DNA of 33,278 bases from Candidatus Aenigmatarchaeota archaeon. Its GTDB lineage: Archaea > Aenigmatarchaeota > Aenigmatarchaeia > CG10238-14 > SCSR01. Both the position numbers and the translations under genes were made by a program. Of this stretch, positions 3,307 to 28,200 are shown piece after piece. Positions within the stretch are counted from its first letter, which is position 1. Each line of letters begins with the position of its first letter. The notes below the pieces were generated by a model, which was given only the letters and a program-made list of their open reading frames with translations, ran no database searches and was not told the origin of the DNA. Where the stretch lies: positions 1-33,278 of the forward strand of contig JACOWB010000001.1 in the NCBI GenBank assembly GCA_016177025.1, in the 5' to 3' direction.

Positions 3307-3365
3307 ATTAAATACTTGTCGTCGAATAATGATATAAATGAGTGGGCGTGTAGCTTAGCCTGGTT

Positions 3366-3380
3366 TTCTCTGTACCAGAG
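3366..3380 (+). other. Putative 15-nt intron in D-loop of tRNA-Ile
   Basis: ctgg/ccag 4-bp helix with 3-nt bulges ttt and aga; removal leaves D-loop agcctggtta. Confidence 0.6.
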
Positions 3381-3397
3381 AGAGCAATTGTCTTATA

Positions 3398-3419
3398 ATG
3401 GCAACTAAGCTAATAAGTG
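3398..3419 (+). other. 22-nt intron at canonical 37/38 of tRNA-Ile
   Basis: ctta/taag central helix, 3-nt bulges taa and tga; removal leaves loop cttataa, anticodon TAT. Confidence 0.8.
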
Positions 3420-3457
3420 AGCAATAGGTCCCCGGTTCAAATCCGGGCATGCCCACT

Positions 3458-5195: not shown

Positions 5196-6644
5196 TTACA
5201 AAAGAGCTTCTTTTTCAAAATAATTCCGTAGAAATACACCGAAGTTCTTATCTTTTTTTATCAAATTCGATATTTTGCTTTCGGGTATCATTTCATATCC
5301 TTTTGCTATTTGCTCGGCTATGTAGTTTGGTATGCCTTTTGCTCTTAGTATTTCTGCGCTCCTCTTAAGGCTGTCTACAAGCTTTTCATGAGATGTAATG
5401 AATTTACGTCTAACCTCTACAATCCAGTTAACATTTTCAACAAACGGTCCTGTCAATGGATTACTGTACTTTTCCAAGAATCTTGCTGAATCGTTCAAAT
5501 CAAATACACTCGGTCCAATTCTTTTCTGTATATGGGGCAGTTTGTCAACTTCCATTTCCAGCAAAATTATTGCAATATTTTTCTCATCTGAATACACATC
5601 TTTTCTGAGGACCTTGAACTCGTACTTGGTTTCTTCCAGAATCTCTTGCAGTCTTTCGGCGAATCTTCTCAATTGCGGCCATAATATATCGGGGACCACC
5701 TTTGGTGGTGTGAATTTAATCAGTAATAACTCTGTTCTTCTCTGTGCCTGCATTTTGGATAGTTCTCTGGTTGTAATCGGTTGCATTTTCTGAGGATAAA
5801 AATATTTTTCATTCGGTCTGTCCAAGAATTGTTTGGCTAATTTTTTGAACCTCAAGAATTTTTCAACGGATATGGGCGAACCGGTATTTCTGTTCCTGTC
5901 AGTCGGATCTATCAGGATTAATGGATTGCTCTTAAACCTGATTTTCAATTGTCTGTATTCCTCTTTTTTATACTGGTTTTTCAGATCTATGATTTCTCCT
6001 GGTTGCCATTTAGCTGCAGCTTTCAGAACTTCCACAAAACCTCCGTATCTAATCGTCAGCAATTCACAAACATAACCAGAAAATCCTTCGGTTTTAGCAT
6101 CGGCGCCATAGATTTTATCGGCTGTGAGAAATTGCTTCAGCAGTCTGACTTCATCTGATAGTGTCGCTTGGAGATTCTTTTCTATATATCTAACATGAAA
6201 TGGAGTTCTATCTACTGCAGATTTTATCCTTTCAGCAGATTCAACCTCATAACAAGGAACTATGTCTATATCCACACCTTGAACCAACCCTGATGCATAA
6301 GGGTGTTGCGCGTATTCTACCGAGAACTTGCCTTTTAGCTGTTTGACAACTTCCCTACCAACCAACAGTCCATATTCCTCCAGTTTGTTTTCTGGCAAAT
6401 CTGGTGAGAATAGAATAAAGACATCAAACTCTCTTTTGCCAGGTAGCCATGTGTTTCTGGTGATGCTGCCTGCTAGAATAGCTTTAGCATGATATTTTTT
6501 GGCTTTTTCTTTGGTAATCTCAAGCGTCTTTTGCGATAGTTCAGTCAGGAATTTTTCCTCTGTCTCTTTTGGTTTGATTTTATTCAGAACTTTTGATAAA
6601 ATCTTCTGATAATTCATTTTCATAATTAATCTATTTGTTTGCAT
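5196..6644 (-). CDS. cca: Archaeal CCA tRNA nucleotidyltransferase
   Basis: AILAGSITRNTWLPGKREFDVFILF and VDIDIVPCY; archaeal class I CCA enzyme architecture; start may be an internal ATG. Confidence 0.92.
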   Translation of the reverse strand: MQTNRLIMKMNYQKILSKVLNKIKPKETEEKFLTELSQKTLEITKEKAKKYHAKAILAGSITRNTWLPGKREFDVFILFSPDLPENKLEEYGLLVGREVVKQLKGKFSVEYAQHPYASGLVQGVDIDIVPCYEVESAERIKSAVDRTPFHVRYIEKNLQATLSDEVRLLKQFLTADKIYGADAKTEGFSGYVCELLTIRYGGFVEVLKAAAKWQPGEIIDLKNQYKKEEYRQLKIRFKSNPLILIDPTDRNRNTGSPISVEKFLRFKKLAKQFLDRPNEKYFYPQKMQPITTRELSKMQAQRRTELLLIKFTPPKVVPDILWPQLRRFAERLQEILEETKYEFKVLRKDVYSDEKNIAIILLEMEVDKLPHIQKRIGPSVFDLNDSARFLEKYSNPLTGPFVENVNWIVEVRRKFITSHEKLVDSLKRSAEILRAKGIPNYIAEQIAKGYEMIPESKISNLIKKDKNFGVFLRNYFEKEALL

Positions 6645-6961: not shown

Positions 6962-7303
6962 ATGACTACGCTTTCACTAACTGAAAGGTTAAACACATAC
7001 GGCGAACGTGTAAGATCTGAACAAGGAGATACACTTTTCTTACCACAGGCAGCTCTGCAACATTTTCCGGAATTGGGTGACGGTACTTCTATGGAAGCTT
7101 ATGCAAATCTGGCAAGGCAAGCAAAGAGTAGAATTGTTCCTTATGAAATTGTTGGTGGGGGCGTAAGTACCGACTTTTGTTATCTTCCTACAGGTAAAGC
7201 TAGAATTTATCCATTCGGAAATCTTGTCAAAGAATTAGAACTTGATTTTATTCAGCGTTTAGAACTCGAAAATAATTTGACACAAAAGGCGACTATTCAA
7301 TAG
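6962..7303 (+). CDS. Hypothetical protein, 113 aa
   Basis: ORF immediately downstream of the small ORF; protein-like composition. Confidence 0.55.
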   Translation: MTTLSLTERLNTYGERVRSEQGDTLFLPQAALQHFPELGDGTSMEAYANLARQAKSRIVPYEIVGGGVSTDFCYLPTGKARIYPFGNLVKELELDFIQRLELENNLTQKATIQ

Positions 7304-7400
7304 CCCCGAGCGGATTCGAACCGCCGTCCCGAGATTTCTTTCATATTGTCCAGAGTCTCGTATCCTTTTATGGCAATTGTGACCACTAGACGACAGGGCT
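7301..7400 (-). tRNA. tRNA-Gln(CUG), interrupted in the D-loop and anticodon loop
   Basis: Minus strand: acceptor agccctg/cggggct, D-stem gtct/ggat, anticodon stem cgaga/tctcg, T-arm ggcgg ttcgaat ccgct; A1-U72 as in archaeal tRNA-Gln; 73 nt after removing 13 + 14 nt. Confidence 0.85.
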
Positions 7401-8491: not shown

Positions 8492-9148
8492 ATGAGGATA
8501 TTACAGTCGCATGCAGATTTCATAGAATTTGAACCCACGCAAAAAGAGATTTCTCAGGCAGAGGAGGTTGAAAAGAAAAAATACAGATATGAAGATATAG
8601 TGGTCTTGTTTGTTTCCGTTGAAAGGGATGACACAGAAGCTGTTGGAAAAAAAGCTATCGATGATGTTAAAGAATTTCTTGGAAAAATCAAAGGAAATAA
8701 AATACTAGTGTATCCCTTTGCGCATCTGAGCAGAAATCTTGCAATGCCGAACGACGCGCTAAAAATTATCAAGGGCATGGAGATGTATGCAAAGTCGATG
8801 AAAATAGAAACTTATCGCGCACCGTTTGGATGGACAAAATCATTGCATATAAAAACCAAAGGTCATCCTCTTGCTGAAACTGCGAAAATATACGGTACGG
8901 AAGCAAAGGCAGAGGTCAGACGAGATAAGACATCATCAAAAAAAATAATTCTTGACAGAAAAGGCCTGCCACCCAACGACCATAGGATACTCGGACAGGA
9001 CCTTAAGATATTCACATTCGCAGACGAAGTCGGCGCTGGTTTGCCGCTTTTCATGCCTAATGGAGAATTCATCAAACACAAGTTGCAAGAGTTCATGAGC
9101 CTGCCCGCACCATCACATGATTTTCAAACAGTTAGTAACAAGCTATAA
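8492..9148 (+). CDS. thrS: Threonyl-tRNA synthetase N-terminal fragment (archaeal editing domain + start of catalytic domain), frameshifted
   Basis: Editing domain MRILQSHADFIEFEPTQ...VYPFAHLS; ADEVGAGLPLFMPNGEFIKHKLQEFM, then frame breaks. Confidence 0.85.
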   Translation: MRILQSHADFIEFEPTQKEISQAEEVEKKKYRYEDIVVLFVSVERDDTEAVGKKAIDDVKEFLGKIKGNKILVYPFAHLSRNLAMPNDALKIIKGMEMYAKSMKIETYRAPFGWTKSLHIKTKGHPLAETAKIYGTEAKAEVRRDKTSSKKIILDRKGLPPNDHRILGQDLKIFTFADEVGAGLPLFMPNGEFIKHKLQEFMSLPAPSHDFQTVSNKL

Positions 9149-10028
9149 TGATTTGCCGTTGCGTTTAGCTGAAGCGGGGACAACTTATAGAAAGGAATTA
9201 TCAGGAGTAACATATGGTCTCATTAGAGTGTTAGGATTCTGCCAAAATGATGCTCACATTTACGTGAGAAAAGACCAGCTGAAGGATGAATTCACAAAGG
9301 TTTTGCAATTGTTCAAAGAAGTTTACAAAATAATGGAGATAAAAGGATATTGGTTCAGGCTTTCTTTGCCTGATTTCAAAAAACATCCGGAAAAATTTAC
9401 AGGAAACGCGAAAGAATGGGAATTTGCATCAGAGGAAATAAGGAAAGCGATGAAAGAATTTGGGCAGAAATTTGTAGAAGAAAGGGGTGAAGCTGCATTT
9501 TACGGGCCGAAGATTGATGTGCAGATAAAGAATACTCTTGGTAAGGAAGAAACTATAGCTACATCCCAAGTTGACATTGTTGTTCCTAAAAGAATTGGAT
9601 TGACCTACAGGGAAAAGGACGGCAAAGATGGAACGGTGATAATAATCCACAGGGCCATTCTTGGTAGCTATGAAAGGTTTATTGCATATCTTCTGGAGCA
9701 GACAAATGGAAACTTGCCCATTTGGTTGTCATCATTGCAAGTCAAGATAGCAACATTGTCGGAGGAAAATGTTAAATATGCTCAAACTGTTGAAAAGGAA
9801 TTGACTGAAAGCGGTATAAGGGCAGAAGGAGATTATGAATCCCACACGATTGAATACAAGATAAGAAGTGCGCAACTCCAGAAAATTCCTTATGTTATTG
9901 TAATTGGGAAGAAAGAGGAAGCAAATAAAACTGTAGCTGTTAGAACGAGGGATGGAAAAGTTAAGTATGGAATGGAATTAGAAAAACTTGTAAAGCAACT
10001 GAATGATGAAATAAAAAATTTTAGATAA
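9117..10028 (+). CDS. thrS: Threonyl-tRNA synthetase C-terminal fragment (catalytic remainder + anticodon-binding domain)
   Basis: Homologous reading starts upstream of the ATG as CPHHHMIFKQLVTSYNDLPLRLAEAGTTYRKELSG; GEAAFYGPKID; anticodon-binding C-terminus. Confidence 0.85.
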   Translation: MIFKQLVTSYNDLPLRLAEAGTTYRKELSGVTYGLIRVLGFCQNDAHIYVRKDQLKDEFTKVLQLFKEVYKIMEIKGYWFRLSLPDFKKHPEKFTGNAKEWEFASEEIRKAMKEFGQKFVEERGEAAFYGPKIDVQIKNTLGKEETIATSQVDIVVPKRIGLTYREKDGKDGTVIIIHRAILGSYERFIAYLLEQTNGNLPIWLSSLQVKIATLSEENVKYAQTVEKELTESGIRAEGDYESHTIEYKIRSAQLQKIPYVIVIGKKEEANKTVAVRTRDGKVKYGMELEKLVKQLNDEIKNFR

Positions 10029-15082: not shown

Positions 15083-15193
15083 CCCCGCTTAGCTCAATGG
15101 TGGAGCGCGCCGCTGTAGCCTAGTACTGTTGTGCTAGAGATCAGCACTCTACCGGATACGGTGAGGTTGTGAGTTCAAGTCTCACAGCGGGGA
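15083..15193 (+). tRNA. tRNA-Tyr(GUA) with 39-nt anticodon-loop intron
   Basis: Acceptor ccccgct/agcgggg, D-stem gctc/gagc, anticodon stem cgccg/cggtg, T-arm gtgag ttcaagt ctcac; 72 nt after intron removal (15119-15157). Confidence 0.9.
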
Positions 15194-15231
15194 CAAATCT
15201 TTAAAAACATTTACTTACAGTATTATTTTAT

Positions 15232-15346
15232 TGACGACCAAAGCGAAGGTGAAACACCCGTTCCCATTCGAACACGGAAGTTAAGACCTTCAGCGTAGTG
15301 GTCTGTACTAATGCGAGAGCGTTGGGAAATCCACTGCGTCGTCAGC
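15232..15346 (+). rRNA. rrf: 5S rRNA
   Basis: Terminal helix tgacgac/gtcgtca; acacccgttcccattcgaacacggaagttaag signature. Confidence 0.9.
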
Positions 15347-15404
15347 CTCTTTTAGATTTATAAACACGCTTCTCATATTATTCAATCAAGCCCGGATCGT
15401 CTAG

Positions 15405-15426
15405 ACTAGCTTTTAACTAGGGACAA
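15405..15426 (+). other. Putative 22-nt intron in D-loop of tRNA-Asp
   Basis: gtct[aga]ctag / ctag-ggac[aat]: 4-bp central helix with two 3-nt bulges; removal leaves D-loop agtggccta. Confidence 0.75.
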
Positions 15427-15457
15427 TGGCCTAGGATAAAGCCCTGTCACGGCTTCG

Positions 15458-15479
15458 ATCAGGTAACCCCTGAGAGTAT
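15458..15479 (+). other. Putative 22-nt intron in variable loop of tRNA-Asp
   Basis: tcagg taacc cctga hairpin; gctt[cga] / gagt[ata] weak central helix with 3-nt bulges; removal leaves 4-nt variable loop cgac. Confidence 0.7.
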
Positions 15480-15593
15480 ACGCGGGTTCAAATCCCGCTC
15501 CGGGCGCTTTCATTTTTAGATAACAGCGAACCTTTTGCAAACATATTTAAAACATTAGTTCCATTTTAAAAGAAATGAAAGGAGGTGTTAAGA

Positions 15594-27080: not shown

Positions 27081-27386
27081 ATGCCAACAAAACCGCACAT
27101 TAACATAATGACAGCAGGACATGTAGACGCAGGAAAGTCTACCCTAGTCGGACGACTTTTGTACGATACAGGCGCCATCAGGGAAGAAGAAATGAGAAAG
27201 CTGAAGGAAATCGCCACTGAATTGAAAAAGGAAACGTTTGAATTCGCATTTGTGATGGACAAGGTCAAGGAAGAGAGGGAGAGAGGCGTTACGATTGACA
27301 TCATGCACAGGCCGTTCGAGACGCAGAAATGGTATTTCACTCTTATCGATGCCCCAGGTGAACAAGATGGATGCCGCAAATTATGA
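27081..27386 (+). CDS. tuf: EF-1A N-terminal fragment (G1-G3), frameshifted after DAPG
   Basis: [33 protein letters not shown] then frame lost. Confidence 0.88.
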
Positions 27387-28200
27387 CCAGAAGAGATTTG
27401 ACGAGCTCAAGGGCGAAGTTTCGAAGCTCCTGCAGGGGATCGGGTACAAAATAGATGAGATAACATTTGTTCCTGTATCGGCTTATGTCGGTGACAATGT
27501 TGCGAAAAAATCCGACAAGATGCCTTGGTATACGGGCCCTACATTGATAGAGGTTTTGGACCAGCAAATCAAGGAGCCTGCTAAACCATTGGACAAGCCG
27601 TTGAGATTGCCGATCCAAGATGCATATTCAATCACAGGCGTTGGAACTGTCCCTGTTGGAAGAGTTGAAACAGGCGTGATGAAGATAAACGACAAGATCA
27701 TTTTCATGCCTTCCGGAGCAATAGGTGATGTCAAGTCCATAGAGATTCACCATCAGCAATTACCGCAAGCAATACCAGGCGACAATGTCGGGTTCAATGT
27801 CAGGGGCGTTGACAAGTCGCAGATAAAGAAAGGCGATGTTGTGGGCCATCCTGACAGTCCACCATCTGTAGTTTCCGAATTTACAGCGCAGATAATTGTT
27901 TTGAACCATCCAACTGTAGTGACTGCCGGATATACGCCAGTTTTCCATGCGCATACTGCCGCAGTTGCATGCACGATTGAAGAGATAATCGCGAAGATAG
28001 ATCCGAAGACTGGGCAAGTTGTGCAGGAAAAGCCAGACTTCATCAAGACTGGCGATGCCGCAAGAATCAAGGTAAAACCATTGAAGCCCTTTGTAATTGA
28101 AAAGCAGTCGGACTTTCCGCAGATGGCGAGATTTGCTATCAGGGATATGGGAATGACAGTTGCGGCTGGGATAGTTCTCGATGTGGTTAAAACCAAGTAA
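27295..28200 (+). CDS. tuf: EF-1A C-terminal fragment from G4 onward; homologous reading begins about 27358
   Basis: [31 protein letters not shown], domains 2 and 3. Confidence 0.88.

Follow-up and report, generated by a model that had tools for sequence, protein, structure and literature searches.

Can a tRNA gene that is interrupted twice outside the anticodon loop be functional in a DPANN archaeon, and which enzyme would remove the introns? In the textbook view, non-canonical tRNA introns are tied to heterotetrameric or epsilon2 forms of the splicing endonuclease, EndA. The gene that raises the question is a tRNA-Asp(GUC) gene of 117 bases at 15390-15506 on the + strand of the window, the whole 33,278-nucleotide stretch of DNA analysed here. 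The window is contig C2 of a Candidatus Aenigmatarchaeota MAG (G000; 571 kb, 23 contigs, 86.3% complete), in agreement with the DPANN-like gene context noticed earlier from the letters alone. We consider it highly probable (about 0.92) that this is a functional tRNA-Asp(GUC) gene, the sole one detected, with two bulge-helix-bulge (BHB) introns that are spliced out to leave a tRNA of 73 nt. On the + strand the gene runs exon GCCCGGATCGTCTAG, intron ACTAGCTTTTAACTAGGGACAA, exon TGGCCTAGGATAAAGCCCTGTCACGGCTTCG, intron ATCAGGTAACCCCTGAGAGTAT, exon ACGCGGGTTCAAATCCCGCTCCGGGCG, and its parts are:

15357..15364, + strand: TATA-box-like TTTATAAA, 33 nt upstream of tRNA-Asp
15390..15404, + strand: exon 1 of tRNA-Asp(GUC), with the acceptor 5' strand, positions 8-9, the D-stem 5' strand, A14 and G15 (sequence, solver, DP alignment)
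15405..15426, + strand: intron 1, 22 nt, at D-loop position 15/16, with a BHB motif (solver, DP alignment, shuffles)
15427..15457, + strand: exon 2, with the D-arm remainder, the anticodon arm AAGCC CUGUCAC GGCUU, C44 and G45 (sequence, solver, DP alignment)
15458..15479, + strand: intron 2, 22 nt, at variable-loop position 45/46, with a BHB motif (solver, DP alignment, shuffles)
15480..15506, + strand: exon 3, with A46, C48, the T-arm, the acceptor 3' strand and discriminator G73 (sequence, solver, DP alignment)

The earlier note had proposed precisely these two introns, at non-canonical positions and with none in the anticodon loop, and its boundaries are exact to the base. A solver that scores cloverleaf and BHB together, and that was blind to this proposal, ranked 15405-15426 and 15458-15479 first. 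When the gene was aligned by dynamic programming (DP) with the uninterrupted tRNA-Asp of three relatives (G006, G009, G010), the identical two 22-nt insertions appeared with each reference, at a best score of 49 against a maximum of -1 among 100 shuffles. Excision of both introns shortens the D-loop from 31 to 9 nt and the variable loop from 26 to 4 nt, as had been claimed. It produces a D-stem GUCU/GGAU, the loop AGUGGCCUA and the variable loop CGAC, next to an acceptor stem, T-arm and anticodon arm (anticodon GUC) that are fully paired. Thus a standard tRNA is restored, as judged by the solver, the DP alignment and comparison with uninterrupted family members. CCA is not encoded at the 3' end.

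Both exon-intron junctions lie in 3-nt bulges set apart by a 4-bp helix. At the D-loop site the 5' bulge AG|A and the 3' bulge AA|U flank the central helix GUCU/GGAC (4 bp), with an inner helix CUAG/CUAG (4 bp), the arrangement that had been described from the sequence. The variable-loop site was said to be similar in layout but weaker; we found bulges CG|A and AU|A, a central helix GCUU/GAGU of 4 bp, two of them wobble pairs, and an inner helix UCAGG/CCUGA of 5 bp. When 20,000 shuffles were made of each intron and both helices were required at the exact register, P was 2.5e-4 for the D-loop site and 1.5e-4 for the variable-loop site (~2e-4 per intron). The outer helix of the hBHBh' motif is just 2 bp at each site, so that both motifs are complete apart from a short outer helix. 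In the central helices, exon bases 10-13 and 40-43 are paired with the intron, so that the D- and anticodon stems of the mature tRNA can form completely only after excision.

Comparison with relatives was based on a tRNA-Asp pattern search over 59 related genomes, with the matches then read. Uninterrupted tRNA-Asp genes occur in members of the same family and order (G006, G007, G008, G009, G010, G017); in G006, G010, G017 and G009 the exons of the window gene are joined gap-free, the D-arm being of the GTCTAGTGGYCTAGGAT type and the variable loop 4 nt long. Within the genus, tRNA-Asp has 1 to 5 introns per gene at eight positions. The window gene has 15/16 and 45/46, G001 has 29/30, 37/38 and 45/46, G002 has 15/16, 29/30 and 45/46, G003 has about 27/28 and 45/46, and G005 has 45/46 alone. 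The 15/16 intron of G002 differs in sequence from intron 1, and the 45/46 site shared with G001, G002, G003 and G005 has covarying helices. Among the five congeners with this intron, the 3-4-3 layout is kept while the pairs change: the central helices are GCUU/GAGU, GCUU/GGGU, GCUG/CAGC, GCUG/CAGA (3/4 pairs, G003) and GCCG/CGGU, and the inner helices vary with compensation. The layout is also kept at the D-loop site, where the inner helix is CUAG/CUAG in one gene and CAGG/CCUG in the other. This covariation, in a sample of five variable-loop and two D-loop sequences, supports both predicted helices.

The most heavily interrupted gene is that of congener G004, which has introns at 5/6, 29/30, 37/38, 53/54 and about 59/60-60/61.

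G004:C1:66200-66550 (L179), - strand: tRNA-Asp with five BHB-like introns, of which the acceptor stem holds one and the T-loop region two

It holds 105 nt of intron within a 73-nt tRNA. The 5/6 intron is 34 nt long, and its central helix has 3/4 pairs and uses one leader base. Spliced by hand, the gene reads GCCTTGG TC GTCTAGTGGCCTAGGATA AAGCC CTGTCAC GGCTT CGAC GCGGG TTCAAAT CCCGC CCAAGGC G, and the acceptor, anticodon and T stems pair fully. Unguided DP alignment gave four insertions, one of them a 43-nt gap, because the two T-loop introns were merged into a single gap with the T-loop thereby altered. The two T-loop introns are our own parse, which is supported by putative BHB motifs of 4+5 bp at both. 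A review gives three introns per tRNA as the archaeal maximum (PMC4033280), whereas this gene has five.

These relatives bear on two other readings of the window gene. It might be a decaying pseudogene that has acquired insertions, with Asp codons read by another tRNA absent from the assembly. A second, intact tRNA-Asp(GUC), which the earlier note had named as evidence against its proposal, was searched for, and a single copy was found in this genome; as the assembly is rated 86% complete, a second copy could be absent from it, which leaves the pseudogene reading some room. Nevertheless, every stem is intact in the spliced form, the insertions sit on exact BHB boundaries, the promoter is retained, and the congeners' tRNA-Asp genes are interrupted too, with no intact copy detected in their assemblies, so we regard decay as very improbable. 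We give as little credence to an unspliced tRNA that functions as it stands, its D-loop enlarged and its variable arm long and class-II-like. The predicted fold of the 117-nt RNA does retain the acceptor and T-arm. Against this, the variable loops of relatives are of the standard 4 nt, and in a single genus the extra segments are gained and lost at eight positions, some of which, in G004, lie inside the T-loop and the acceptor stem; furthermore, a long variable arm is not known from tRNA-Asp.

Standard tools overlooked this gene. ARAGORN, by default and with introns allowed, did not detect tRNA-Asp, nor did Rfam RF00005 at its gathering score; below that score the 3' part alone was matched (E 0.15). 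The other tRNA genes of the window are also interrupted (four of four in all):

3344..3455, + strand: tRNA-Ile(UAU), with introns in the D-loop (about 3366-3380) and at 37/38 (3398-3419) (solver)
5196..6644, - strand: archaeal CCA-adding enzyme, 482 aa (Pfam PF09249, 8e-39; PF21133, 4e-30)
7301..7400, - strand: tRNA-Gln(CUG), with introns in the D-loop (about 7368-7380) and at 37/38 (7336-7349) (solver)
15083..15193, + strand: tRNA-Tyr(GUA), with one 39-nt intron at 37/38 (about 15119-15157) (Rfam, ARAGORN, solver)
15230..15347, + strand: 5S rRNA gene, flanked by tRNA-Tyr and tRNA-Asp (Rfam RF00001, 84.9 bits)

The call of tRNA-Leu (anticodon CAG) that ARAGORN made by default for 15083..15193 was rejected in favor of tRNA-Tyr(GUA) with its 39-nt intron. 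A search of the genome for TiaS (PF08489) found none; together with the UAU anticodon of the spliced tRNA-Ile, this is consistent with AUA being decoded by UAU, instead of by an agmatidine-modified CAU. Across the genome 28 tRNA genes were solved, including three window genes that Rfam missed or scored poorly. About 23 of the 28 are interrupted, and of the approximately 27 introns some 12 lie outside 37/38, although the exact ends of several are ambiguous. The introns of tRNA-Trp, tRNA-Lys and elongator tRNA-Met (L006, L009, L012; 33-43 nt) have similar GATGAYAG-AAGRA ends, which might reflect copying of introns between tRNAs or a common box-C-like element. Two protein-coding genes of the window also appear broken when read by eye. 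The elongation factor 1-alpha gene (27081-28200, + strand) is divided into two ORFs that differ in frame, and part of the GTPase domain seems to be absent between DAPG and NKMD, either through assembly error or in reality; threonyl-tRNA synthetase (8492-10028, + strand) is similarly split into two ORFs in different frames, its central part seemingly absent.

The route from gene to tRNA can be outlined from established knowledge of EndA and RtcB, from which we infer transcription, ligation and cleavage by the sole detected EndA. The tRNA-Asp gene would be transcribed from its own TATA promoter into a 117-nt precursor; the TTTATAAA octamer is present at -32/-33 in all six congeneric orthologs. 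The precursor would fold into the two BHB motifs, recruiting D-stem bases 10-13 and anticodon-stem bases 40-43, and EndA would cut after the second of the three bases in every bulge (AG|A...AA|U and CG|A...AU|A). RtcB would then ligate the exons, the cloverleaf would refold, and the CCA enzyme encoded in the window would add CCA to finish the 73-nt tRNA. EndA and RtcB are both encoded in the genome (PF01974, 2.4e-28; PF01139, 5.7e-164), the latter in one copy.

The earlier note had expected an epsilon2 or heterotetrameric EndA. The genome instead has a single PF01974 gene (L001:145-714, - strand), which encodes an EndA of 189 aa. The PF02778 and PF01974 domains occur together in this one chain, as in one-chain alpha4 enzymes with N- and C-terminal domains. 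The predicted structure of its closest named ortholog (L088, 88% identical; pLDDT 87, pTM 0.86) has as its top fold match the alpha4 EndA of Methanocaldococcus jannaschii (1a79; TM 0.79/0.87). Among named records, the closest EndA sequences come from groundwater MAGs of Ca. Aenigmatarchaeota. No epsilon2 EndA (~390 aa, three units) was found in this genome or in G001-G004, nor was a gene for the structural subunit of an (alpha beta)2 enzyme, as each of these genomes has one PF01974 match, although such a search could overlook a beta subunit that has diverged strongly. A second EndA, too, could be absent from an 86% complete assembly; congeners rated 91-93% complete likewise have one EndA alone.

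Only (alpha beta)2 and epsilon2 enzymes are described as removing relaxed introns efficiently, and alpha4 enzymes are classed as narrow in specificity (PMC6379350); PMC4033280 adds a Korarchaeal alpha2 EndA with a specific loop. The enzyme found therefore differs from the one expected. The stated need for a relaxed enzyme is not strict, since both tRNA-Asp sites are near-complete BHB motifs; many other introns of this genome (12-15 nt, inner helix 0-2 bp) are of the relaxed kind.

The active site of the enzyme is also altered. EndA was aligned with the M. jannaschii enzyme, and 72 relatives were read (among loci L088-L167). These were fetched with search patterns built from this very enzyme type. 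They are non-independent samples, so that the counts that follow do not measure independent events. Tyr115 and His125 (M. jannaschii numbering; Y119 and H135 here) are kept in the window organism and in 72/72 relatives. The position of the catalytic Lys156 is Ala here and Ala in 63, Thr in 6, Ser in 2 and Lys in 1 of the 72; the Tyr-His-Lys triad of alpha4 enzymes is thus incomplete here and in 71/72 relatives. Between the catalytic Tyr and His is an insertion, GVKLKRGPK, whose Lys130 is present in 71 relatives. The insertion is missing solely in L164, a Hydrothermarchaeota record, which is also the sole relative to keep the Lys. The Lys-less, insertion-bearing form spans Aenigmatarchaeota and Nanohaloarchaea records. 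In the same class, eight epsilon2 enzymes have retained the Lys, with YK in their ASL region, and three tandem-gene enzymes and one fused enzyme have the Ala/Ser and G(P/K/Q)K pattern. The Lys-rich insertion was considered as an ASL/CSL loop and rejected, as that loop lies near residue 34 according to the literature. There, K34 in YGKPLPEEEPN is conserved in 66/72, in the region of ARMAN-2 K161 and A. pernix K44, with a register against ARMAN-2 that varies between alignments. Four genomes of the class (G025, G027, G040, G053) each have a second, short EndA beside the epsilon2 enzyme. Interrupted tRNA-Asp seems rarer in epsilon2-bearing genomes, in a small sample uncorrected for relatedness.

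As the catalytic Lys is replaced by Ala and the alpha4 architecture is nominally narrow, the activity of this EndA is an assumption. Our tentative proposal, held at slightly under even odds, is that Aenigmatarchaeota and Nanohaloarchaea have a rewired single-gene EndA in which the role of the triad Lys has moved to GVKLKRGPK, with Lys130 the best candidate, and that this alpha4 architecture cuts both non-canonical and relaxed introns, allowing up to five per tRNA. The simplest reading of the alignment is that the insertion may have come first and the old lysine was lost later, with one of the lysines in the insertion taking over from it. It is considerably less likely, yet deserves weight, that the introns are real and the Ala-type EndA is a non-catalytic partner, with a second, unrecognised endonuclease making the cuts. 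The loss of the catalytic Lys from the only EndA found would fit this, as would the tandem PF01974 neighbour in three genomes of the class, where a partner role is conceivable; but the 91-93% complete congeners carry solely this EndA, its Tyr and His are invariant, and among the relatives read the Lys-bearing insertion between these two residues is present in all that have lost the old Lys and only in those.

The introns are of a known kind, BHB introns at non-canonical positions, here in a little-described lineage. As in Thermoproteales (PMC4033280, PMC6379350), they have BHB motifs, occur several per tRNA and outside 37/38, and affect most tRNA genes; in contrast to Thermoproteales, no heterotetrameric EndA was found in this genome. 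ARMAN-1/2 (Micrarchaeota; PMC4033280, PMC12397907) are also DPANN with multiple-intron tRNAs, but their EndA is epsilon2. Enzymes of ARMAN type occur in other genomes of the class and keep the catalytic Lys that the present type lacks. The M. jannaschii EndA (1a79) is alike in its chain of ~180-190 aa, its N- and C-terminal domains and its catalytic Tyr and His, whereas the present enzyme has Ala for K156 and the insertion GVKLKRGPKAA between Tyr and His. In the catalytic subunit of Nanoarchaeum equitans EndA (3iey_A), Tyr and His are likewise separated by an insertion of this sort, KKG-K, but the catalytic Lys (STRKKM) is retained and the enzyme acts as a heterotetramer. Searching the open-access literature by title, abstract and term counts, on which priority cannot be asserted, we found neither tRNA introns described for Ca. 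Aenigmatarchaeota nor an archaeal tRNA with more than three introns, nor any account of the EndA lysine change. The five-intron tRNA-Asp appears new, as does the EndA variant, possibly with a relocated catalytic lysine.

That standard tRNA finders overlook essential tRNAs is a warning for work on DPANN genomes. In contrast to the textbook association, a single alpha4-like EndA without the textbook catalytic lysine is accompanied by introns in most tRNA genes, and how the tRNAs of this lineage are cut is a testable puzzle. The Lys-less single EndA and the turnover of introns within the genus lead to three directly testable questions: the course of intron gain and loss, whether an essential RNase can move its active-site lysine, and whether substrate range may be set by loop insertions rather than by subunit type.
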